NCBI GenBank assembly: GCA_029213165.1
Contig: JARGNO010000007.1
Span: 1 to 64,000, forward strand
DNA length: 64,000 nt
DNA from: Minwuia sp.
GTDB taxonomy: Bacteria; Pseudomonadota; Alphaproteobacteria; Minwuiales; Minwuiaceae
Direction of reading: 5' to 3'
The translations under genes were made by a program, and so were the position numbers. Below the pieces are notes generated by a model, which was not told the DNA's origin, searched no databases, and saw only the letters and a program-made list of their open reading frames with translations. Shown one piece after another: positions 8,785 through 34,220 of this stretch (position 1 is the stretch's first letter; each line of letters opens with the position of its first letter).

Positions 8785-9082
8785 TCGCCACGCGACGCCG
8801 GTATGAGGCAGCAGCCTTGAGGGCGCGCGGCGTCGGAGCCGGTGGTGTGTCGAGCGCGGCTGAAAACAGTCGGGCGTCCTCTGCCGTCAGTACATGACGC
8901 GAACTGTCCTCGATGACCCGCTGGGCCTCCTTGGCAATCGCGTTGCGAAGGAATACCGACTTGTCGACCCCGAGAGCCACAGTGGCGCGCTCGATCAGCG
9001 CAGCCAGGCTTTCGCCATGTCGCACCTGTGTTGTGCGCGTCTGCTTCTCGCTGCTCAGGCCAGTCACATTCAGGTCCAGCAT
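8774..9082 (-). CDS. DUF1778 ribbon-helix-helix antitoxin (TacA-like)
   Basis: This 102-residue protein has an N-terminal ribbon-helix-helix-like segment (TRTTQVRHGESLAALI, then a helix with VDKSVFLRNAI) and a C-terminal toxin-binding region, as in TacA antitoxins. Such proteins neutralise the GNAT toxin and repress their own promoter. The ATG at 9082 is preferred because TGGAGG lies about 6 bases upstream; in-frame ATGs at 9100 and 9124 lack a comparable site and would cover the operator-like palindrome. First gene of a two-gene operon with the acetyltransferase. Confidence 0.87.
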   Translation of the reverse strand: MLDLNVTGLSSEKQTRTTQVRHGESLAALIERATVALGVDKSVFLRNAIAKEAQRVIEDSSRHVLTAEDARLFSAALDTPPAPTPRALKAAASYRRRVANAD

Positions 9083-9101
9083 TTCCAGCCTCCATTTCAT
9101 C

Positions 9102-9115
9102 GCAGTATGTACTGC
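9102..9115. promoter_or_regulatory. Operator-like palindrome upstream of the toxin-antitoxin operon
   Basis: GCAGTATGTACTGC is an inverted repeat with 6-base arms (GCAGTA/TACTGC) in an AT-rich stretch 20-33 bases upstream of the antitoxin start. Its place suits autoregulation by the ribbon-helix-helix antitoxin; binding is inferred. Confidence 0.5.
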
Positions 9116-9211
9116 ATATTGCATTACATAGCAAGAGTGACTGTCATTCGATGCATGGTGACAGCCCGGAACTTCCCCAGGGTACTGTGTTCCGGGTTCG
9201 CGGATTCTGAC

Positions 9212-11647
9212 CTACTCCCGCGCTGCGACCTCCAGCGGTGGAACCTTGCAAATCTGCGGGCTGCTGGTCGGGCCGAGAGGGGTGGCGATGCCGCCATCCG
9301 CACCGATGGAAACCTGATGACCGGCAATCTGCAGGGTGAAGCCACCGCCGGGCTTTGCCGTCACCGCCTCTGCCACCGCGCCCTTGCAGCCCAGATCGAC
9401 CGCGACAAGGAACTCGGCCGCGTTCAGCTTTTCCTTCGTCGCCACGGTGGCGTGCCACTGCGGCTGCCAGTCGGGAACGAAGAACTCATCCGGGTTGGCG
9501 GGGAACTCACTGGTCTGGCCAATGCCGAAATCCGGGGCGCTGAGCACGGTGAAACAGGCCTTGCCGTCGCCCTTGGTGATGTTGAGGCCATTGGCGCCCT
9601 GGCGTTCGATCTCGGTCCAGCTGTGCAGGTTCCATTCGAAGCGGCGCGGCGTTTCGGAGGCGAGATCGTCGTAGATCAGCGCCACATCGGGCCGCAGGTA
9701 CATCATCGTCCGCACCGCCCGGCTCAACTCACCCTTGTAGGCGGGTGTGGCATCGCCGACAGCCATGTCCATGTCGCCGCAGCGTGCGAAATTGACCAGA
9801 TCACCCTGCGCCGACCGGTCCTGATAGGGCTGACCCTCGCCACCATCATAGGTGATCGCATTGTGGGCCTTCGTCCGCATGGTCCAGCTTTCGTGGTGCG
9901 CCGATTTCCAGGTGTCGTAGTAGCCACTGTCGATGGCGAGCGACTCGCCGCGACCGTTGATGATGAAGCTGTTCTGGTCCGCATGGGAATGGTTGAAGGA
10001 ACCGTACGGGCTGGACTTGAACAGGATCGAGTATCGGTCCGGATCGTCGAGGTCGCTGTGCATCGCGACCCAGCCAATCGAAGGGAAGATCGCCGTGTCC
10101 GGCAGCGGGACATGTTCCTCCGTCACGAAGGCCTTGGCGGGGTGGTAGAGCGGTCCGTAGAGGTGAACAAAATATTCCTCGTCCGTCTCCGCCTCGTTCC
10201 AGAGGGAGGCCAGGCGGCGGCTGATCGGGGTGTCGACCCGTTGCAGATAGAGCTTTGACAGCAGGCTCCAGGCGGAGGAGCGTTCATATTCACCGCCGTC
10301 GCCGAAGGCACTGTTCGGCGTGCCTGGCGGGATCAGGTAGCTGAAGAAGATACCGGCCTGCTTGGGCCAGCCCATGTTGACCGGATCAACGCCGATCGCG
10401 TTCCGCAGCACGTCCCAGTACTGCATGCTGTTCATCGCGTCCCAGACACCGTAATTGACACCGTTGCCGAAGCCGCCGTCGTCACCGCCCCAGGGATTGT
10501 TGGTGGCGAGATAGATCGGATAGGTGCGGAAGAACCAGTTCTTGGCGCGGGGCGAGTCACCGGCCAGCAGGATGGCGATTGCCGTGATCGCGCCCGCCTG
10601 ACGGAAGCCGTGACTGTTGTAGGGCTTGCGTTCCAGCTGGCGGCGCGGATGCACGATGTAGCGATCGAAGGCGGCCTGCGTCCGATACTCGATCATCTTG
10701 ATCGTCTCGGCCTTCTGCTCGTCAGTCAGCCAGCGCTTGGTGATGTCATAGGTGAGCGCCAGCGCCAGCGAGATGCGCAGGTTCGACAGGTCAGACGACC
10801 GGAGGCCGGTTGAATGATCCGGGTCCCAGGACAGCAGGTTCGCCGCCCGTCGCCAGCTTTCGCCCAGTGTCGCCTCGTCCCTTGTCAGCCAGTAGGTATA
10901 GGTCAGGGTGGACAGTCTGACGGTGGCGCGATTGACCTCGCTGGCAATGAAGCGGGCGACGCGGATGCGCTCGTAGAAATCCTCCACCTCGAAGGTTGCG
11001 ACCGGCGGTTCCTTGGTCAGTTCGTCGCCGATCCACTTCTTCTCGACCGTGCGTTTCACGCCGTTGAACAGGGGCTTGCGCTCTCCCTGCCGCAGATTGC
11101 GGCGCAATTCCCCGAACTCCTGCTTCGGTGGCATCGCGCGGGGGTTGCGGCGGTCCAGCGCCAGCGTCCAGGCCTCCGACACCGATGGCGCGACGAAGAC
11201 ATGGGCATGCGGGTGAATGCTGAATGCCCGCCACTGGCTCCAGTCCCCGGCGGGCTGTCCGGCTGGCCAGAGGCGCGCCCGCCAGCGCCAGTTGCCCTTT
11301 GCCAGCGGGGCATCGAGCATCAGGTGATTGTCGGGCGTCAGGCGATGGACCCGGGTTCCGTCCTCGTTGAGGATCTCCAGCTCATAGGTTGTGTCTACCG
11401 CGTCATAGCGCCAGTGAAACACCGGCGGATTCTGTGCGGCAATGGTGCCATTGGCGGGATAGACCGGGAACTCCAGCGCGGTTTGTGGCGACAGGAAATC
11501 GGTCACCACCTGTGGCTTCGGCAGCCGCTGGACATAGTCGAGCCAGATATCGACATTCTCGCGCTGTGTCTCGGCACGGGACGCCGTCGCAATGCAGATT
11601 GCGAGAGTGGCGAGGGCCAGCGCACGAAAAGCAGTGCGAAATTCCAT
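9212..11647 (-). CDS. Secreted DUF4962/heparinase II/III-fold polysaccharide lyase
   Basis: This 811-residue protein has an N-terminal signal peptide (basic start, hydrophobic core, cleavage near ASRA-ETQ). The next region, to about residue 200, looks like the DUF4962 N-terminal domain. An (alpha/alpha) toroid and a C-terminal beta domain of the heparinase II/III type follow. Family active-site-like segments are YNSHGFRQ, FNHSHADQNSF and KAHNAITYDG. It probably cleaves a uronate-containing polysaccharide in the periplasm or outside. The ATG at 11647 has AGGAG 8 bases upstream; the frame is open to 11695. It diverges from the glycosyltransferase operon, which suggests it acts on that operon's product. 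Exact substrate unknown. Confidence 0.85.
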   Translation of the reverse strand: MEFRTAFRALALATLAICIATASRAETQRENVDIWLDYVQRLPKPQVVTDFLSPQTALEFPVYPANGTIAAQNPPVFHWRYDAVDTTYELEILNEDGTRVHRLTPDNHLMLDAPLAKGNWRWRARLWPAGQPAGDWSQWRAFSIHPHAHVFVAPSVSEAWTLALDRRNPRAMPPKQEFGELRRNLRQGERKPLFNGVKRTVEKKWIGDELTKEPPVATFEVEDFYERIRVARFIASEVNRATVRLSTLTYTYWLTRDEATLGESWRRAANLLSWDPDHSTGLRSSDLSNLRISLALALTYDITKRWLTDEQKAETIKMIEYRTQAAFDRYIVHPRRQLERKPYNSHGFRQAGAITAIAILLAGDSPRAKNWFFRTYPIYLATNNPWGGDDGGFGNGVNYGVWDAMNSMQYWDVLRNAIGVDPVNMGWPKQAGIFFSYLIPPGTPNSAFGDGGEYERSSAWSLLSKLYLQRVDTPISRRLASLWNEAETDEEYFVHLYGPLYHPAKAFVTEEHVPLPDTAIFPSIGWVAMHSDLDDPDRYSILFKSSPYGSFNHSHADQNSFIINGRGESLAIDSGYYDTWKSAHHESWTMRTKAHNAITYDGGEGQPYQDRSAQGDLVNFARCGDMDMAVGDATPAYKGELSRAVRTMMYLRPDVALIYDDLASETPRRFEWNLHSWTEIERQGANGLNITKGDGKACFTVLSAPDFGIGQTSEFPANPDEFFVPDWQPQWHATVATKEKLNAAEFLVAVDLGCKGAVAEAVTAKPGGGFTLQIAGHQVSIGADGGIATPLGPTSSPQICKVPPLEVAARE

Positions 11648-18757: not shown

Positions 18758-19204
18758 TCAGACTGAGGCCGTTTCCAGACTCAGGCGACTGAACCGGTCG
18801 GCGGCCATGCGGGCGAACCGGAGCGTCACGGCCTTGCGGCGGGTCCCGTTCAGCTTCAGGTCCGGCGCCTCCCGAACAATGGCGCCATCATAGGTATCGG
18901 CGATGATCAGACCGCAGTCGTCGGGAATGATCTCCGATGGAAAATCGGGGGGTACCGCGAAGAAGAAGCGGTCGCAGAAGTCCCGGTACTCCTGCCACTT
19001 GGCATCCGAACGATAGTCAGCGACGGATGATTTCACCTCCACGATCCAGACCGACCCGTCCCGTCCGATGGCCATCACGTCTGCCCGGCGGCTGTTGCGC
19101 AGGGTGACCTCAGTCAGGGCTGGCCGGTCGTGCTGCGCCAACATGCGCACGACGCCACGGGCAATGGCCACACCATCGGGGCGTATGGGAACATCTGGGA
19201 ACAT
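18758..19204 (-). CDS. mmcB: MmcB-family DNA repair protein
   Basis: This 148-residue protein matches the MmcB family (PF06319), a PD-(D/E)xK nuclease-like fold. The core is RRADVMAIG followed by IVEVKSSVADYRSD and a KW pair, giving the D...ExK arrangement. Segments FFFAVPPDFP and DCGLIIADTYDGA are typical of the family. In Caulobacter the gene is SOS-induced and supports mitomycin C resistance. A LexA-like box with correct spacing is not seen here. It is unrelated to its neighbours. The start may be further downstream, since the first ten residues are not family-like. Confidence 0.87.
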   Translation of the reverse strand: MFPDVPIRPDGVAIARGVVRMLAQHDRPALTEVTLRNSRRADVMAIGRDGSVWIVEVKSSVADYRSDAKWQEYRDFCDRFFFAVPPDFPSEIIPDDCGLIIADTYDGAIVREAPDLKLNGTRRKAVTLRFARMAADRFSRLSLETASV

Positions 19205-19527: not shown

Positions 19528-22500
19528 ATGACTGACGGCATCATCGGAACACCGGACGCGGACACGCTTGCAGGTACGGAAGCAGACGACATCATCGTTG
19601 GCGGTGGTGACAATGACACCATCGACGGCGGTGCGGGCAACGACAGCATCCGCGGCGACGGTGACAGCGATGGCGGCACGGTCGAGATCCGGGACTTCAT
19701 CATCAATGGCTCGTTCGAGGATGTGGCCGACGGCTCCGGCAGCCCGACCATGCTCTCCACCTTCAACAGCAATGGCGACGACGTGCATGACCGCACGGAA
19801 GTCGGTTTCTACGAGGCCGTGCCCGGCTGGCAGACCAGTGGCGACAATATCGAAATTCACGGGGACTGGACCGGCATCGCGAACTCTCCCGCTGCACTCG
19901 ACGGCAATTTCAAGCTGGGGATCGATGGTGGTGGCACCGACCCCTTCTTCAACAACACGAACGTCTTCCAGGATGTCGAGGGACTGCTGGATGGCGAGAG
20001 CTACACGCTGAACTTCTCCCTGCTGAACCGCGACGGCGATTATGGCGATGTGGTGAAGGTCTATTTTGGCGGCGAGAAGATCGCGACCATCGAGCAGACC
20101 TCCACCGACTGGTGCGAGTACGAGTTCGTGGTCGAGGGAGGTGCCGGTGACGGCTGCGACCAGCTCGAGTTCAGGATCTGGACCTACGACGAGCATGCGA
20201 TCTTCATCGACAGCGTCTCCCTGGTCGGCCCGGCGAATGTCGTGGTCGAGGATGTGCCCGGCGATGACGTGATTGCCGGTGGTGCCGGTGACGACACCAT
20301 CGATGGTGAGGAAGGCAATGATGTCATCGACGGTGGCGAAGGCGCTGACCTGATCGACGGCGGTGAAGGCAACGACACCCTGAACGGCGGTGCGGACGGC
20401 GAAGGTTCCGGTTCCGGTGGCGGCGAGGAATTCTGCGCCGAGAACGGCATTGCGGGCTTCGATGCGGTCGGCGTCAGCCTGTCCGGCACCGACTTCGACG
20501 GCAGCCCTGCCACCGTGACCGACACCAGCCATGGCATCGGTGTGGCGGGCGGCAGTCCGGTCGGTGAGCAGATCAATCATTCCAGTTCCGGCGAGAGCCA
20601 GACGCTGACGGCCGACTTCGGCCAGAACGTCGACAGTGCGACAGTGACGGTCACGCATTTCTTCCCCGACGAGGGCAATGGCGGAGAGACCGGACAGTGG
20701 CGTGCCCTGGACGCGGACGGCGTTGAGGTCGCGACCGGTACCTTTGGCCCGGACGACGTGATCACCGATCATGATCTGGGCGACATTCCTGCAGTGGGCC
20801 GCTTCACCATCGAAGGCATCGGCGAATTCGCCTCCATCGAACTTTCGGCGCTGCCCTATGCGGATGGCGACGATGTCGGTGGCTCGGATTCCAGCGACTA
20901 TTTCCTCTATTCCATCAAGTTCACCACGCCCGCTGTCGCCGATGACTGCGGTGATGGCGACAGCGACACCGTCCATGGCGGTCTGGGCGATGACGAGATC
21001 AACGGCCAGGGCGGCGATGACGCGCTGTTCGGCGACGACGGCAACGATCTGATCGACGGTGGCGCGGGCAACGATGTGATCGACGGCGGTGCTGGCAACG
21101 ACACGATCACGGGTGACAGCGGCACCTCTTCCGGGGGTGTGCAGCAGATTGCCATCCCGCAGGGCGAGAACGGTCTCTATGACGTGGCGGGCCGTGACAG
21201 CATCACCCTGACGATGGATTTCCTGGGCGGTGAGGCGGCGTTCAACAACAGCTTCGGCTTCTATCTGGCTGACGGGACCGGCGCGCCGATCTCCGGTGAG
21301 GTGGTCAAGGCGGACGTCAAGACCTCCGACGCTGGTGAAGGCGCGGATGTCCTGACCTTCACGCTGAACGCCGCGCAACTTGGCGGTGCGGCGCAGCTTG
21401 GCCTGTTCCTGATCCCGAACGGCGGCAGTCTGAACGCCGGACTGGCCGATGGCGATGCCGTGACCTTCGCGGACAATGGCAGCGGCGAACTGCAGGCCCT
21501 GGTTGATGGCACCCCTGTCTTGGCGGAGGCTGGCCATGGCCCGGTCTTCTTCTCCGACGCCAGCCTGAACGGTGATGGTGTCGATCATGAGAGCGACAGC
21601 GAACTCGCCGGCAACTCCAACTGGGAAGATCTGGAGAACGGCGGCGACAACGACTTCAATGACGTCAACTGGCAGGTCGATGTCACGACGACGGAAGTCT
21701 GCGAGACCGGCCATGACGACACCATCAATGGTGGTGAGGGCCATGACCTGATCGCGGGCAACGAAGGCGACGATTCCCTGACCGGCGACCTCGGCTGTGA
21801 CACGCTTTCGGGCGGTGAGGGCGACGACATCCTGGCGGGCAACGCCGGTGCGGACGTGATGGATGGCGGTGCCGGTACCGACACTGCCGACTATTCCGCC
21901 GCACAGGGTACGGTGCTGGTCAGCCTGAACGACGGTATCGCGGAGAAGGATGGCGACGGCTGGATCGACAGCCTGGCCAATATCGAGAACCTGACCGGTT
22001 CCGATCACAATGACTCCTTGCTGGGCGACAGCGGTGACAACGTCATCCTCGGCGGTGAGGGTGATGACACCATCGACGGCTTCGGTGGCGCGGACACCAT
22101 GGATGGTGGCGCGGGCAGCAATACGGTGTCGTTCCAGAGTGCCGATGGCGGTGTCCTGATCGCGCTGCAGAACAATCTGGCGCAGGATGCCGACGGTCTC
22201 GACATTTCCCTGACCGGCTTCAACAGCGCCATCGGCTCGGACTTCGATGACCGCATCACCGGCAATGATGCCGACAACACCCTGATCGGTGGCGGTGGCA
22301 ACGACGACATTCGCGGCAATGATGGCGCGGACCTGATGTATGGCGATGGCGTCACGCAGAGCTTCGGCGATACCGACACGCTGATCGTTCATGCCCATGG
22401 TTCGCCGCTGGACGGCGTCTTCCCCGTCATGGAAGTCTCCGTCGGCGGCGTCGTTGTCGGCACGGCGCAGGTGACCCAGTCCCTCAGCGCCTATGATTTC

Positions 22501-24834
22501 GACATTTCCGGCCTGACCGAGGCGCAGCGCGCAGGTGAGGTCAAGATTAGTTTCCTGAACGATGCCACTGACGGCGGTGACTGCGACAATTCCTTCGGTC
22601 CGGAAGGCAATGAGGACCGCAACCTGTTTGTCGAAGCCATCGAGTTCAACGGGGCCCTGACCGACGCATCGGCGGGGGAGCTCTCCTTTGAACCGGACCA
22701 GTTCGTCAGCTACCAGTCCGGTGGCGCGAACTTCGCGGTCGAGGACATCAAGAAGGAGATCAACGACTCCGGCGCGGATCGCCCGAACGGTGGCAACGTC
22801 TACACCGGATTCGTGGTCTTCGCCGGTCTGCCGACCGAAGCTCCCTTCGATGGTCCGAACTCCGACTTCGTCATCGGCAATGATGGCAATGACACCCAGT
22901 TCGGCGGCTTCGACGCGGACACTGTCTTCGGTGGACAGGGTGACGACTGCCTGTTCGGCGGCGATGGCGACGATCTGGTCTGTGCCTTCGAGGATGATGA
23001 TGAGGTCTACGGCGGTGCCGGCAACGATTTCGTCGAGGGCAATAGCGGCGATGACAGCGTCTTTGGCGGCGATGGCGATGACAAGGTTGCGGGCAACGAC
23101 GGCACCGACACGATCTTCGGCGACGACGGCAATGACGATGTTGATGGCGGCGCGGGTGATGACTTCGTGTTCGGCGGGTCCGGCGCCGACTCTGTTGGTG
23201 GTGGTGACGGCAACGACGTGGTCCATGGCGACGCCGATGACGACACTGTGCGCGGCAACAAGGGTGATGACACCCTGTTCGGCGATGGCGGTGCCGACAG
23301 CCTGCTTGGCGAGACCGGCAACGACCTGATCTTTGGCGGCGTCGGCAATGACACGGCCAAGGGCGACGCAGGCGATGACACCCTGGTGGGCGACGCGGGC
23401 GCTGATTTCCTGGACGGTGGCGATGGTGCCGACAGCCTGGTCGGCGGCGAAGGCAATGACATCCTGCGCGGACGTGCTGACGATGACGTGCTCGACGGCG
23501 GCGTCGGCTCTGACGTCGTCAAGGGTGACGGCGGCAATGATGTCGTGTCTGGCGGCGATGGCGATGACCAGGTCGAAGGCGGCGACGGTGACGACACGGT
23601 CGACGGCGGCGACGGCACCGACAAGGTTCTGGGCGATGCGGGCAACGATCTGGTCTCCGGTGGTGCCGGCGACGACACCGTGCGCGGCAATTCCGGCAAT
23701 GACACGCTGCTTGGCGGTCTGGGTGCCGACTTCATGGAAGGCGGTGCGGACGACGACCGGGTCGAGGGTGGTGACGGCAACGACACCATGCGTGGCGACG
23801 GTGGCCGGGATGAACTGTTCGGTGATGCAGGTGAGGATGTGCTGCGCGGCGGTGAAGGCAATGACACCATGCACGGTGGTCTTGATGCCGACTTCATGAG
23901 TTCTGACAACGGCGACGATGTGCTGTTCGGTGACGAGGGCGCGGACAGCCTGCGCGGTGGTGACGGTGACGACACGCTGACCGGTGGTGAAGGTGACGAC
24001 AACCTGCGCGGCAACCTGGGCAACGACCAGCTCGACGGCGGCGTCGGCAATGACTTCATGGACGGCGAGGATGGCGACGACGCCCTGTTCGGCGGTCTGG
24101 GCGATGACGTGCTGCGTGGCAATGATGGCGAAGACACCATCGAGGGCGGTGAAGGTGCCGATCGCATCCGTGGCGGCCTGAACGGGGATGACCTGTTCGG
24201 CGGTGGCGGCGATGATTTCATCAATGCCGATGGCGGCAGGGACTTCGTTGATGGCGGCGACGGCGATGACGAGCTGTTCGGTGCCGGTGGCGACGACACC
24301 CTGCTGGGTGGTGCCGGAAATGACCGCATCCGCGGCCAGGATGGCGCCGACAGTCTGGATGGCGGCGCGGGTGATGACTTCATGACCGGTGACAATGGCG
24401 ACGATTTCATGGCCGGTGGCGATGGAAACGACGACCTGCGCGGCAATGTCGGCTTCGATACCCTGTTCGGTGGCAATGGCTCTGATACGCTGACCGGCGG
24501 CAACGGGCAAAAGGACACCTACCTGTTCGGGCGTCGTACCGACCTGGAAGCCAATGACGACACGATCATCGACTCCGGCGCAGGCAACACGCTGAACATC
24601 TTCGGCGTTGATGACCTGGGTGAACTGGCCTTCTCCGACCTGGGTGACGGCATCGTCAATGTTTCCTTCCTTGACGGTTCCGGTTCGATCACCTTCGACG
24701 CGGATGCCGTGACGGAGCTCAATCTGCTGGATGCGCTTGGTGGAACGGTGACGACGGCAACGACCTTGTTGAACAATGGTCTCGCGGGCATTGACTTGCT
24801 CGACGATGAAAACAACCTGTTGTTTACGATCTGA
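19528..24834 (+). CDS. Giant RTX calcium-binding protein with carbohydrate-binding-like and DUF4114 domains
   Basis: This 1768-residue, very acidic protein is built on GGxGxDxxx nonapeptide repeats, which bind calcium and fold outside the cell. Short repeat blocks alternate with folded modules. Residues about 56-235 form a jelly-roll-like domain (NGSFED, VPGWQT), 305-465 a second beta domain, 535-720 a DUF4114-type domain, and 950-1045 a domain like xylan-binding CBMs. From about 1110 to 1650 there is an uninterrupted array of roughly 60 repeats. There is no N-terminal signal, and the last ~115 residues are repeat-free and end in NNLLFTI, as in type I secretion substrates. No secretion genes are in the window. 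It is probably a surface or matrix protein. Confidence 0.88.
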   Translation: MTDGIIGTPDADTLAGTEADDIIVGGGDNDTIDGGAGNDSIRGDGDSDGGTVEIRDFIINGSFEDVADGSGSPTMLSTFNSNGDDVHDRTEVGFYEAVPGWQTSGDNIEIHGDWTGIANSPAALDGNFKLGIDGGGTDPFFNNTNVFQDVEGLLDGESYTLNFSLLNRDGDYGDVVKVYFGGEKIATIEQTSTDWCEYEFVVEGGAGDGCDQLEFRIWTYDEHAIFIDSVSLVGPANVVVEDVPGDDVIAGGAGDDTIDGEEGNDVIDGGEGADLIDGGEGNDTLNGGADGEGSGSGGGEEFCAENGIAGFDAVGVSLSGTDFDGSPATVTDTSHGIGVAGGSPVGEQINHSSSGESQTLTADFGQNVDSATVTVTHFFPDEGNGGETGQWRALDADGVEVATGTFGPDDVITDHDLGDIPAVGRFTIEGIGEFASIELSALPYADGDDVGGSDSSDYFLYSIKFTTPAVADDCGDGDSDTVHGGLGDDEINGQGGDDALFGDDGNDLIDGGAGNDVIDGGAGNDTITGDSGTSSGGVQQIAIPQGENGLYDVAGRDSITLTMDFLGGEAAFNNSFGFYLADGTGAPISGEVVKADVKTSDAGEGADVLTFTLNAAQLGGAAQLGLFLIPNGGSLNAGLADGDAVTFADNGSGELQALVDGTPVLAEAGHGPVFFSDASLNGDGVDHESDSELAGNSNWEDLENGGDNDFNDVNWQVDVTTTEVCETGHDDTINGGEGHDLIAGNEGDDSLTGDLGCDTLSGGEGDDILAGNAGADVMDGGAGTDTADYSAAQGTVLVSLNDGIAEKDGDGWIDSLANIENLTGSDHNDSLLGDSGDNVILGGEGDDTIDGFGGADTMDGGAGSNTVSFQSADGGVLIALQNNLAQDADGLDISLTGFNSAIGSDFDDRITGNDADNTLIGGGGNDDIRGNDGADLMYGDGVTQSFGDTDTLIVHAHGSPLDGVFPVMEVSVGGVVVGTAQVTQSLSAYDFDISGLTEAQRAGEVKISFLNDATDGGDCDNSFGPEGNEDRNLFVEAIEFNGALTDASAGELSFEPDQFVSYQSGGANFAVEDIKKEINDSGADRPNGGNVYTGFVVFAGLPTEAPFDGPNSDFVIGNDGNDTQFGGFDADTVFGGQGDDCLFGGDGDDLVCAFEDDDEVYGGAGNDFVEGNSGDDSVFGGDGDDKVAGNDGTDTIFGDDGNDDVDGGAGDDFVFGGSGADSVGGGDGNDVVHGDADDDTVRGNKGDDTLFGDGGADSLLGETGNDLIFGGVGNDTAKGDAGDDTLVGDAGADFLDGGDGADSLVGGEGNDILRGRADDDVLDGGVGSDVVKGDGGNDVVSGGDGDDQVEGGDGDDTVDGGDGTDKVLGDAGNDLVSGGAGDDTVRGNSGNDTLLGGLGADFMEGGADDDRVEGGDGNDTMRGDGGRDELFGDAGEDVLRGGEGNDTMHGGLDADFMSSDNGDDVLFGDEGADSLRGGDGDDTLTGGEGDDNLRGNLGNDQLDGGVGNDFMDGEDGDDALFGGLGDDVLRGNDGEDTIEGGEGADRIRGGLNGDDLFGGGGDDFINADGGRDFVDGGDGDDELFGAGGDDTLLGGAGNDRIRGQDGADSLDGGAGDDFMTGDNGDDFMAGGDGNDDLRGNVGFDTLFGGNGSDTLTGGNGQKDTYLFGRRTDLEANDDTIIDSGAGNTLNIFGVDDLGELAFSDLGDGIVNVSFLDGSGSITFDADAVTELNLLDALGGTVTTATTLLNNGLAGIDLLDDENNLLFTI
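23000..24510 (+). repeat. Dense RTX nonapeptide-encoding repeat array
   Basis: Roughly 27-base units encoding GGxGxD nonapeptides run without an intervening domain, with diverged codons so that copies are not identical at DNA level. The GGN-GAY composition also leaves other frames open for long distances. Confidence 0.8.
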
Positions 24835-24922: not shown

Positions 24923-25147
24923 ATGACCGAACAACCGATCCAGAAACAGCAGACAGGCTCCGATTCGGCGCGTGCGGGTCGTCGGGCAGCGCTCGCCAAA
25001 CTGGGTCTGGGCGCGGCTGCGGTCTATCTGGCGCCCACGGTGACGCGGCTCGACAGCGCCAAGGCCGCCTTCCCGAGCAATTGTGCGGGTGGCGGTTCCC
25101 AGGCGCCTGCCCCCTCCGGCGGCGGTGGCGGCGGCGGTTGCCAGTAA
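24923..25147 (+). CDS. Small Tat-signal glycine-rich protein, paralogue 1
   Basis: This 74-residue protein has a twin-arginine-like signal (R20-R21, then ALAKLGLGAAAVYLAP) and a likely cleavage site after AKA48. The predicted mature part is only 26 residues, beginning AFPSNC and ending in a glycine run and CQ, with cysteines at 54 and 73. ATG 24923 has AGGAGGG about 9 bases upstream; the frame is open from 24866 but that start lacks such a site. It follows the RTX gene by 88 bases and may be cotranscribed. I do not recognise a named family. The signal region closely matches the next gene. Confidence 0.72.
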   Translation: MTEQPIQKQQTGSDSARAGRRAALAKLGLGAAAVYLAPTVTRLDSAKAAFPSNCAGGGSQAPAPSGGGGGGGCQ

Positions 25148-25323
25148 CCCCCACCAGGGTCGGAACAGCCAACAGTACGCCACAATTCCCGCATCAGGCG
25201 TGATGTGATCTTCATCATTCCACCGGGGCAAATTCCACGTGCGCACCTTGTGTGGTGCATGAGTACCCACCACATGATTCTCCGAGAGCAGAAGATCTTT
25301 CCGCTCTGTCGGAGAAGCTTGCA

Positions 25324-25575
25324 ATGGAAGAGCCGGAACCCACACTGACCCGCCGCACGGCGCTCGTGCGACTCGGGCTCATGGCGACAGCGGCATATTC
25401 TGCGCCCCTGGTTACCCGTCTCGACAGTGCCCGTGCAGCATTTCCCAGCGACTGCGGAGGCGGACCCGGTGTTGGCTTCGGCCGTGGTGGTGGCGGCGGT
25501 CAGGGCGGCGGTGGCGGTTGTGGCGGCGGGACCGCCAACAATCCGGGCAACAACGCCGGCGGCAAGAACAAGTAG
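25324..25575 (+). CDS. Small Tat-signal glycine-rich protein, paralogue 2
   Basis: This 83-residue protein shares the signal and cleavage block of its upstream neighbour: RR at 10-11, then VTRLDSARAAFPSDC. The mature part (about 45 residues) is glycine-rich with cysteines at 44 and 66 and a basic Asn/Gly tail. ATG 25324 has GGAGAAG upstream at good spacing; GTG codons at 25252 and 25255 would add a 24-residue extension and cannot be excluded. Function unknown. The shared two-cysteine, Gly-rich design suggests a structural or modified secreted peptide pair rather than enzymes. Confidence 0.68.
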   Translation: MEEPEPTLTRRTALVRLGLMATAAYSAPLVTRLDSARAAFPSDCGGGPGVGFGRGGGGGQGGGGGCGGGTANNPGNNAGGKNK

Positions 25576-31226: not shown

Positions 31227-32699
31227 TCAGGTGCCAAACCGGGGTTGCATCTCAGTTTCGATGTCTGCATTCGGCAGGCGAACGATCGCACAGGTCCCCT
31301 TGCCGGGCTGGCTCTCCAGGGTCAGCGTACCGCCATGCCGTTCCACCAGCTCGCGCGAAATGGTCAATCCCAGACCCGTTCCATGATCGACCTTTCGGGC
31401 CACGCCCGCTGCTTCGGCCTGACGGAACGGATCGAACACCAGGGCCAGGTCGGCCGGGTCGATGCCGACACCATTGTCGCTGATGATCAGCAACAGGGCA
31501 CCCGTCCCGTCCAGTTCCCAGGTCAGGCGCACATGCCCGCCGTCCGGCGTGAACTTGATGGCATTTGACCCCAGGTTGATCATGACCTGTTTCATGCGGA
31601 ACGGGTCGAAGGTCGCATGGACCCCGTTCGCGGGCGTGATCTCCAGCCTCTGGTGCCTGCGGTCGGCCAGTGGACTGAGGACCTTTCGCACTTCGCCCAG
31701 ATGCTCGTCGAGGCTGGCGCGCTCCGGCGCCACGACGAGGTTCTGTTGCTCCACGCTGGACATGTCCAGCAGGTCGTCGACCAGACGCAACAGGTGACGT
31801 CCGCTGCCGGATATGTCGTCGACATACCCGGAATAGCTTGCGTTGCCGACGGGGCCATGGACCTGCTGCTGCATCAGTTCGGAAAACCCGATGATGGCAT
31901 TCAGTGGGGTTCTGAGCTCGTGGCTCATGGAATCAAAGAACCGCGACCGGGCCTCACCCTGGCTGACGGCGCGGGCGCGGGCATCCTCCAGATTGTCAGC
32001 CATTTCCTGCAGTTCGGTTGAGCGCATCAAGGCTGCGGAAAGGCGCCGGTGCGCATCGCGTCCGAGAAGCAGCAGGTAGAGGCCGTAGAGCGGATAGACG
32101 GCTGATGCGAGCGTAGCCAGTTCGGAGTGAAAGCCGAGCATCAGTGCCTCGGCCGCGATCAGTACCGCGACCGACGGTATCAGGAACACCATCATGTGGG
32201 GGCCGAGGTTGACGAGGTAGGTCGTCAGATGCCCCAGTATGACGATCATCACCAGGGCCTGGACCGCCACATTCTCCTCGGACCAGGCAGCGTACATGAA
32301 ACTGATCCAGACCATGCCGTTCATCAGGTAAAGCATGGTGAGCCGCCAACGCCATGGGCGCACCCTGATCTGTTGAGGGTCAGTCTTCTGAAGCCGTCGA
32401 CCGGTCAGGACCATCGTCGGAATCCAGACAGCGAAAACCGCGTACCAGAGCCAGACCCGACCCGGATGTGTCGCGTCGAACAATGCGAGTGGTGAATCAA
32501 GGAAGAGGCAGAGGATGAGGCCGAAGAATGCCGCGCTGAACGCATCGATCTGACACTGGCGCGCGAGCATCAGCAGTTGCTGACGCTCCACCGCCTCCCG
32601 ATCAATCAGCAGGCCACCGATGCGGCGGCGCAGGCGGTTGAAACGCCTGCGTTGCTTGCGCCAGCTTGACGGGATGTCGGTGCCGGTTGCCTCAGTCAT
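31227..32699 (-). CDS. Membrane sensor histidine kinase, tandem paralogue B
   Basis: This 490-residue kinase has a basic N-terminus and about six membrane segments between residues 50 and 215, with HLTTYLVNLG at 157-166. A short linker helix leads to HisKA with phospho-acceptor His260 and a HATPase_c domain (NLGSNAIKF, DNGVGI, GTGLGL). There is no periplasmic sensor domain of note, so sensing probably occurs in the membrane. It overlaps the upstream paralogue by 8 bases. No response regulator is nearby. Confidence 0.9.
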   Translation of the reverse strand: MTEATGTDIPSSWRKQRRRFNRLRRRIGGLLIDREAVERQQLLMLARQCQIDAFSAAFFGLILCLFLDSPLALFDATHPGRVWLWYAVFAVWIPTMVLTGRRLQKTDPQQIRVRPWRWRLTMLYLMNGMVWISFMYAAWSEENVAVQALVMIVILGHLTTYLVNLGPHMMVFLIPSVAVLIAAEALMLGFHSELATLASAVYPLYGLYLLLLGRDAHRRLSAALMRSTELQEMADNLEDARARAVSQGEARSRFFDSMSHELRTPLNAIIGFSELMQQQVHGPVGNASYSGYVDDISGSGRHLLRLVDDLLDMSSVEQQNLVVAPERASLDEHLGEVRKVLSPLADRRHQRLEITPANGVHATFDPFRMKQVMINLGSNAIKFTPDGGHVRLTWELDGTGALLLIISDNGVGIDPADLALVFDPFRQAEAAGVARKVDHGTGLGLTISRELVERHGGTLTLESQPGKGTCAIVRLPNADIETEMQPRFGT

Positions 32700-34143
32700 C
32701 GGTCCGTGCCTGCTGCCTGTCCAGCAGCGCCCCGGGCAGGGACAGGGTCACGGTGGTTCCCAGCCCGACTTCGCTTTCGATGCGAAGACTGCCGCCATGC
32801 AGTTCCACCATTTCCCGTGAGACCGCCAGCCCCAGGCCGGTGCCATTGCCTTGCTGCCGGGTCAGTTCGCGTGGCTTTGCATTGGCCATGGGGTCAATGA
32901 TGCGCGAGAGGTCTTCGGGTGAGATGCCAACGCCTTCATCCTGCACTGAAATCAGCAGCGTATTGCCCGGCCGTTCCTCCGCCGTGACGCTGACATGACC
33001 GCCCGGATCGCTGAAGTTGATGGCATTGCTGCCGATATTGACCAGCACCTGCAGCATCCGGATCGGGTCAAGCGAGACTCTTGTTCCTGCGGGCACGTTC
33101 AGGACGAAACGGACGTTCTTCTCGCGCGCGGCCGGCAGCAATGCCGCGCCCGCTTCCTCCAGAAGTGCATCCAGTTCGACCTCCGCGCGACGGATCTCCA
33201 TGCGCTGGTGGTGCGCGCTCGACAGATCAAGCAGGTCGTTCACCAGTTGCAGCAGGTGATGGCCGCTCTTGTGGATGTCCTGCACATACCCGCTGTAGCG
33301 CGGAGACCCGAGCTCACCGTGAATCCGGTGCATCATCATCTCCGCGAACCCGATGATCGCGTTCAGGGGCGTGCGCAGTTCGTGGCTCATCGACGCGAAG
33401 AAACTGTATCGGGCCTGACCGGCAGCCACCGCTTCCGCGCGGGCGACTTCCAGATCGTCGGCCATGCTCTTCAGTTCCATGCTGCGCCGCAGGCTTTCGC
33501 CCAGTCGCCGGTTCGCATCGTAACCCAGCACCAGCAGGTAGATGCTGAACATGGGAAACACGACGCCGATCAGGGTGGCGATGTCGGAAGGCTTGCCCAG
33601 CAGCAGGATCTCGCTGAACACGGCGACGGTGACCGTCGTGGTCAGGAACGACAGCAGGTGTGACCCCAGATTGACCAGATAGGTGGTCAGATGCGCGATG
33701 ACGACCAGCAGCACGAACGCCTGTGTTGCCGCACTTTCCTCCGCCCAGGCGAAGTGCAGCAGCAGGCTCCACAGGATGCCGTTCGCGCCATAGAGCGCCA
33801 TGAAAACGAACCGCCAGTGACGCAGCGAAAAATGTTCGGGCGCGCGCTTCAGCAGCCGGCTCCCGGAGACGAACATGACCGGCGAGAGGCAGATGAACAG
33901 AACGAACCAGGTGATCGCGCCGGGGGCGGATTCCTTGGTGGCCAGCAATGTCGGCAAGCTCAGGACAACAGTGATCAAGCCGCCGAACACGATCCGCGTG
34001 ACGCTGTCGACGCGAATGCGCCGGGCCATCATGATGATCTGCTCGCGCTCGATCTCCGGGGCATCAAGCACGGCCCGCAGCAGCCGTGCGAAAGGCCCTG
34101 CGTCAATCAAGGCCGAACGTGGGGCGGGGTTGACCGGTTGCAT
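32692..34143 (-). CDS. Membrane sensor histidine kinase, tandem paralogue A
   Basis: This 483-residue protein has the same architecture as the gene that follows it, including an identical HLTTYLVNLG at 151-160 in the membrane domain. His254 is the phospho-acceptor, and the ATPase domain has NIGSNAINF, DEGVGI and GTGLGL. ATG 34143 is preferred, with CAGGA upstream; a TTG at 34170 would add nine residues. The two genes look like an ancient tandem duplication kept in one operon, possibly forming heterodimers (inference). Confidence 0.9.
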   Translation of the reverse strand: MQPVNPAPRSALIDAGPFARLLRAVLDAPEIEREQIIMMARRIRVDSVTRIVFGGLITVVLSLPTLLATKESAPGAITWFVLFICLSPVMFVSGSRLLKRAPEHFSLRHWRFVFMALYGANGILWSLLLHFAWAEESAATQAFVLLVVIAHLTTYLVNLGSHLLSFLTTTVTVAVFSEILLLGKPSDIATLIGVVFPMFSIYLLVLGYDANRRLGESLRRSMELKSMADDLEVARAEAVAAGQARYSFFASMSHELRTPLNAIIGFAEMMMHRIHGELGSPRYSGYVQDIHKSGHHLLQLVNDLLDLSSAHHQRMEIRRAEVELDALLEEAGAALLPAAREKNVRFVLNVPAGTRVSLDPIRMLQVLVNIGSNAINFSDPGGHVSVTAEERPGNTLLISVQDEGVGISPEDLSRIIDPMANAKPRELTRQQGNGTGLGLAVSREMVELHGGSLRIESEVGLGTTVTLSLPGALLDRQQARTDD

Positions 34144-34220
34144 GACCGCATTCCTGCACGGCAGGCGCAAAGAAATGGTAAATCACGACGGCTTGGGTTG
34201 GCCGGTCGCCAATTGGCCGT

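Follow-up and report, generated by a model that had tools for sequence, protein, structure and literature searches.

The closest known system to the genes described here is that of the linear polyphosphorylated peptides (LPPs) of Bacillota, described in May 2026 (PMC13381572). According to the main text of that report the kinase LppK puts several phosphates on one core serine, and the precursors, of which there are one to three per locus, join a conserved N-terminal region containing YxxPx[hydrophobic] to variable C-termini; they are accompanied by an HprK-like kinase and a discrete RRE (PqqD) protein, in part of the family by an NTP transferase, and at part of the loci by polysaccharide genes. 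These features of precursor design and gene content recur in the family to which our two genes belong, where a nucleotidyltransferase is likewise present in part of the family and where, in the genome studied here, kinase and RRE are encoded in trans. There are also differences from the published description: the spacing between twin arginine and tyrosine is fixed within a leader of the Tat type, the hosts are Pseudomonadota, and the branch containing our genes (the mmcB branch, below) has kinase and RRE in trans and two cysteines in the peptide. The LPP leader motif given there, YxxPxVLxHQxIxFETxxS, is absent (YxxPxVLxHQ and FET each occur in 0 of 80 family proteins), and because the full motif is not found we do not regard the family as a member of the LPPs, though it appears LPP-like in its working. 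LPP clusters as described also contain an archaeal-type signal peptidase and an MsbA-like exporter; a single query, the ABC exporter from locus L204, finds no relative in the kinase stretches of the genus under study (L118-L122, 10-19.5 kb, with the G000 contig cut). The main text of the LPP report mentions neither Proteobacteria, Pseudomonadota nor Tat, and a search of openly licensed PMC text turned up no account of such precursors with a Tat leader.

Two further systems are informative. The paeninodin-type lasso peptide clusters described in PMC8498205 encode an HprK homologue that phosphorylates a core serine, a leader binder of the B1/PqqD type and, in some clusters, a nucleotidyltransferase; a PqqD-like B1 protein and a YxxP leader are present in our system too, and YxxP is reported as the motif bound by lasso-type RRE (PqqD) proteins (PMC12710340, PMC13381572). 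The cores differ, being Gly/Ser/Pro/Arg repeats or two-cysteine segments, as does the presence of a Tat-type signal. The DUF2282 and DUF2063 systems also have RRE-associated precursors with an export signal, but the signal described is Sec rather than Tat, and no specific RRE motif is predicted for them in that account (PMC12710340).

The window, by which we mean the whole 64,000-nucleotide stretch analysed, contains two small adjacent genes, A and B, in the following arrangement.

18758 to 19204, minus strand: mmcB (DNA repair protein MmcB-like, PF06319), conserved as the divergent neighbour in the family branch of A and B.
19528 to 24834, plus strand: RTX protein of 1768 aa with 26 HemolysinCabind stretches, CBM60 and DUF4114, lying between mmcB and the small genes.
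24923 to 25147, plus strand: gene A, 74 aa, ATG start, with a Tat-type leader and a short Gly-rich core with two cysteines.
24980 to 24985, plus strand: twin arginine of A (R20, R21), invariant across 44 aligned proteins.
25025 to 25036, plus strand: YLAP, the YxxP motif of A, a candidate RRE docking site within the hydrophobic region of the signal.
25067 to 25144, plus strand: predicted core of A after SAKA (AFPSNC...C), with Cys54 and Cys73; cleavage site inferred from A-x-A.
25324 to 25575, plus strand: gene B, 83 aa, a paralogue of A with a longer Gly/Asn-rich two-cysteine core.
25351 to 25356, plus strand: twin arginine of B (R10, R11), from sequence and family alignment.
25396 to 25407, plus strand: YSAP, the YxxP motif of B, from sequence and family alignment.
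25438 to 25572, plus strand: predicted core of B after SARA, with Cys44 and Cys66; cleavage site inferred.

The original prediction had described two adjacent small genes sharing a twin arginine and a block AP-x-VTRLDSA-x-AAFPS-x-C, with exactly two cysteines in each product, and the sequence bears this out in its coordinates, block and cysteine positions. A and B are 59% identical when aligned, and both have the twin arginine, hydrophobic stretch and A-x-A of a Tat substrate; gene A is preceded by AGGAGG, a Shine-Dalgarno sequence 9 nt upstream of its ATG. All seven genomes available for the genus contain A, B or both, in tandem in four, with a B-type gene alone in two and an A-type gene alone in one. 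Comparison with the corresponding genes of genome G002 by the NG86 method gives dN of 0.058 and dS of 0.516 for A, and 0.157 and 1.075 for B, and these low ratios mark A and B, at the level of sequence, as real genes under purifying selection. In a leader and core comparison between sister species, in which gapped columns were omitted, dN is well under dS in both parts, so the core is not free to vary inside the genus, its conservation being close to that of the part preceding it. The earlier suggestion of a conserved leader with a variable core therefore holds between genera and families, whose cores do differ, but not within the genus. Neither protein could be assigned to a known family, as there is no Pfam match and the NCBIfam models TIGR02811, NF047638 and NF052523 score far under their cut-offs. 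A plasmid search gave no match, a contig scan of genomes with B as the sole query found no relative, and a promoter and terminator scan showed nothing beyond chance.

A and B belong to a family of probably exported peptides that is widespread and uncharacterised. Its plan is a Tat-type leader with Y-x-x-P 15 residues past the twin arginine and a core that differs widely among genera; in addition to the start, the invariant positions among the 44 aligned proteins are R20, R21, L24, L27, Y35 and P38 (A numbering). We assembled 80 unique proteins (93 rows less 13, from among 45 named loci, that repeat proteins already included) after dropping three rows prior to the motif and core counts: a match in genome G183, a third copy in G202 (34 aa), and a second copy in G277 that has lost its start region. 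YxxP is found by pattern in 79 of these, and the remaining one, the start-trimmed L193, carries YAAP; 78 of the 80 fit YxxPx[LIVMF], and the distance from RR to Y is 15 in 77 of 79. This motif, the one described for RRE-bound leaders, and the family's tie to a kinase and a PqqD/RRE protein support the idea, advanced in the original prediction, that the leader and core plan is that of a modified peptide. Among other Tat signals of relatives YxxP occurs in 0 of 21, a small control set drawn from TIGR01409 loci (29 of 30 fetched, L235 being omitted as its strand is unlisted) and reduced to 21 by removing near-identical sequences; an earlier control by ORF scan yielded 3 signals only and was set aside.

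A leader profile (A2, E <= 1e-4) matches 37 of 387 genomes of the class, or 36 once G183 is removed, the match there being an ABC substrate-binding protein and hence a false hit; the weakest member among the 36 is in G370 (E 9.7e-6). A later profile, A5, matches 8 of 397 genomes of the phylum, five of them new and four of those outside the class. A pattern scan of named genomes returned 45 loci, most of them titled Alphaproteobacteria or genera in that class, including Tistlia, Reyranella, Mesorhizobium, Paracoccus and Rhodovulum; those titled otherwise are one MAG labelled Betaproteobacteria and one Candidatus Sedimenticola. The genome from which the window derives has two leader-profile matches at E <= 1e-4 and no further family member was found in it; its weaker matches (L003-L007) lack, on the strand that was matched, a twin-arginine leader containing YxxP and are not family members.

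Several members depart from the common plan. Two copies are incomplete and may each reflect decay or sequencing error: the third in tandem in G202 (L072:10092-10196) ends at 34 aa, and in G277 the second (L076:9893-10234) has lost its RR region. Three proteins from Rhodobacteraceae-type genomes (L184:9983-10540, L186:9971-10486 and L192:9992-10537) have a longer C-terminal part past the Ser/Pro core, which in L184, the one scanned, matches PepSY (E 7.4e-6); at these three loci the kinase gene is upstream of the small gene rather than downstream. One contig titled Rhizobium sp. Q54 (MAG) (L089/L185:8539-10950) coincides with a stretch of genome G208. Among the sampled genomes G208 is closest to G345 (both f112; titled Rhodospirillaceae, L182), and the Rhizobium label may be wrong.

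The search for the leader in other genomes revealed two predominant settings. Of the 36 genomes with the peptide, 17 carry the small gene immediately next to an HprK-like kinase gene, 16 have it divergent from mmcB, and three have neither; of the 45 named loci, 26 adjoin the kinase, 18 are of the mmcB type, and one, L179, has neither on its 8 kb contig. Tistlia consotensis is an example of a named isolate with the mmcB arrangement, and Paracoccus salsus and Mesorhizobium microcysteis are examples with the kinase arrangement. In the kinase setting a PqqD gene as a rule adjoins or is fused to the kinase, and all 17 genomes have PqqD when adjoining, fused and more distant copies are included; some also have a nucleotidyltransferase, which in the one scanned is PF14907. 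In G024 the small gene and the kinase are separated by the gene of a TPR protein (L036:1602-2765) that weakly matches a family of Fe2+-dependent dioxygenases and is possibly a further modification enzyme. Within the window no ORF of at least 55 aa is labelled as a relative of HprK, PqqD or nucleotidyltransferase. Two overlapping adjacent ORFs at 31227-34170, of about 490 aa, look histidine kinase-like by eye, and sister genomes contain a related pair (cl3).

The kinases themselves have an invariant His, GKS and DD (14 aligned), and the kinase in the window's own genome retains GKS, DD and LRLPLP. A model of one kinase, from L172, has a pLDDT of 92 and a predicted PEPCK/HprK fold, matching HprK (1ko7) with a VIA Z of 13.0 and an rmsd of 2.4 over 126 residues, and PEPCK (1k3c) with a Z of 15.4 over 263 residues at 4.3. 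The similarity to HprK-related kinase A (TIGR04352) is weak, as four family kinases score 48.4, 36.1, 53.0 and 30.5 bits and the own-genome kinase 16.1, far short of the 200-bit cut-off; the best match to this model in the own genome, at 23.8 bits, is another protein that is canonical HPr kinase-like. The kinase match L096 in G000 looks like a canonical HPr kinase and by eye adjoins a RapZ-like gene, and we did not retain it as a candidate. The PqqD of the own genome matches PF05402 (E 2e-12), and the best solved match of the PqqD profile is TbiB1 (E 5.8e-10), a lasso B1 protein.

Peptide, kinase and PqqD largely occur together. A kinase profile (A3, E <= 1e-25) matches 36 of the same 387 genomes, and 33 have both peptide and kinase. 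Since A3 was built from kinases that lie beside these genes, its co-occurrence in the kinase-setting genomes is circular, and the mmcB-setting genomes and a hold-out are therefore the sole independent tests. In the first of these the kinase is found elsewhere in the genome in 14 of 16, against 3 of 351 genomes that have no peptide, counts taken across genomes that share descent; by genus the figure is eight of nine. Seven of these genomes have it on the same contig as the peptide, 25 to 42 kb away. In the second, all five small genes newly met with profile A5 directly adjoin an HprK-PqqD fusion gene. PqqD is present in 32 of the 36 peptide genomes and in none of the three with kinase only, a survey that comprises these 39 genomes and gives no background rate.

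There are exceptions in both directions. Three peptide genomes (G122 and G339, both of the mmcB setting, and G370) have no kinase at E <= 1e-25 and no PqqD at E <= 1e-3; when the kinase threshold is relaxed, weak matches appear in each (6.5e-8, 3.1e-5 and 9.6e-10 respectively, that in G370 covering profile positions 97-258), and similar ones (9.1e-8 and 6.4e-6) in G007 and G008, which have neither peptide nor kinase. G277 has peptide and kinase, with no PqqD even when the surroundings of the kinase are searched frame by frame. G113, G180 and G402 have the kinase and no convincing peptide (best 0.04), and no small Tat gene of the family type was seen at their kinase loci.

The window's own genome encodes the kinase (C114:32895-33719) next to PqqD (33731-33994), behind a glycosyltransferase and on another contig than A and B, and both are present in all seven genomes of the genus. 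In stretch L118 the own kinase and PqqD genes occupy 8881-9735 and 9732-10004. The earlier statement that no maturation enzyme is seen was thus correct for the window but does not extend to the genome. There is no small Tat gene near the kinase of the genus, so that there peptide and kinase are paired by genome only. No NTP transferase was seen in the stretches around it (L118-L122), the G000 contig ending about 0.23 kb past PqqD, and no relative of HlyD, an ABC exporter, polysaccharide export or BBP2_2 was found in them. We also looked at 12 further genomes in which the kinase is encoded in trans, some on short contigs: HlyD and ABC exporter relatives lie near it in six, and polysaccharide export and BBP2_2 relatives in six. 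Examples are L204, L205, L207 and L209-L211, where the small gene is elsewhere, the kinase-PqqD pair is near HlyD and ABC exporter relatives, and several are also near polysaccharide export genes.

From these sequence-based observations (the family, its motif, the two settings, the co-occurrence, the own-genome pair and the predicted kinase fold) we consider it somewhat probable that A and B are precursors of Tat-exported, RRE-guided modified peptides, probably phosphorylated by the HprK-like kinase before export. The N-terminal region would double as Tat signal and RiPP-type leader: the discrete PqqD would bind its YxxPx[LIV] in the cytoplasm and present the core to the kinase, which would phosphorylate a serine or threonine there, the likeliest target in A and B being the serine of F-P-S just before the first cysteine. 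The modified peptide would then be exported by Tat, its leader removed after A-x-A, and its two cysteines probably joined by a disulfide in the periplasm. In the genus of the window, kinase and PqqD would be supplied in trans from behind the glycosyltransferase. The proposed order of binding, phosphorylation, export and cleavage draws on analogy with the paeninodin kinases and LppK.

The main rival is that the mmcB branch, A and B included, consists of plain Tat-exported mini-peptides that form a disulfide (or bind metal), the kinase being never or no longer needed and kinase-PqqD serving another substrate; we regard this as possible though rather unlikely. The composition of the cores gives it some weight, for 31 of 36 mmcB-setting proteins have exactly two cysteines and 32 of 36 have [ST]xC, while in the kinase setting 28 of 40 have no cysteine and 12 have two. 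The median serine content of the core is 6% in the mmcB setting, with or without RTX, and 19% in the kinase setting, a difference with a Mann-Whitney p of 8e-9 among sequences that are related; kinase-setting cores often consist of repeats such as RGS, PSRPS and SRPSY; A has three core serines and B one. With such serine-poor two-cysteine cores, and with the peptide retained in G122 and G339 in the absence of kinase and PqqD, an unphosphorylated disulfide peptide stays a candidate, and the constraint on the core inside the genus is also as this reading would have it. Against it are the recurrence of the kinase in the mmcB-setting genomes at a rate far above that in peptide-free ones, the retention of YxxP in the mmcB branch, and the own genome, which shows no other family member as an alternative substrate. 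Not all cores of this branch are alike: those of L071, L072 and L076 are extremely basic, for example RGRRRRRCKKKK, unlike the Gly-rich cores of the window, and their charge suggests a polyanion partner.

It is improbable, in our estimation, that PqqD acts instead as an export-proofreading chaperone of the Tat signal, with the HprK-like kinase acting on PqqD or controlling export. TorD-type chaperones have a proofreading role of this kind for redox enzymes, and because YxxP lies inside the hydrophobic region, binding by PqqD would hide the signal from Tat; the frequency of PqqD among the peptide genomes is also compatible with such a role. However, the serine-rich cores of the kinase setting suggest the core as the kinase substrate, and LppK and the paeninodin kinases phosphorylate serines of the core as described (PMC13381572, PMC8498205).

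The original prediction placed A and B with the RTX protein and a polysaccharide locus in a secreted matrix or surface role. In support, a small gene lies just downstream of an RTX gene on the same strand in all seven genomes of the genus (in G005 the contig ends within the RTX gene), as would be expected if A and B were accessory proteins of an RTX matrix protein, co-expressed as surface peptides that undergo no enzymatic modification. We consider this accessory reading very improbable. The RTX gene intervenes between mmcB and the small gene in 4 of the 16 mmcB-setting genomes, all in this genus, and in 1 of 18 named loci of that setting (L176), and none is labelled in an mmcB-setting locus outside the genus, in fetched stretches of up to 20 kb with some contigs shorter; the RTX link is therefore local to the genus and we reject it as a trait of the family. 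That A and B are spurious or non-functional ORFs, for which their shortness, low complexity and want of a family model might speak, is scarcely credible given the strong excess of dS over dN, the presence of the family in 36 of the 387 genomes of the class and the clear Shine-Dalgarno sequence of A.

Returning to Tat-exported, RRE-guided modified peptides, the broader proposal, to which we give an even chance, is of a widespread class of such RiPPs in Pseudomonadota, in which the Tat signal serves as the RRE docking leader, an HprK-like kinase phosphorylates repetitive serine-rich or two-cysteine cores before export, a nucleotidyltransferase may decorate them, and the exported phosphopeptides would serve the surface or polysaccharide layer. 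If true, this would join RRE-guided peptide modification with Tat export, a combination for which we found no earlier description. The usual cargo of Tat is a folded protein, and a short, probably disordered one would make sense if modification must come first, in the cytoplasm. The family supplies many natural sets of precursor, kinase and PqqD, some with kinase and PqqD fused and some from named isolates, which makes the idea directly testable. It also provides RiPP-like precursors encoded apart from the enzymes that probably act on them, and mining by gene cluster would miss the precursors of the several genera in which this is so.
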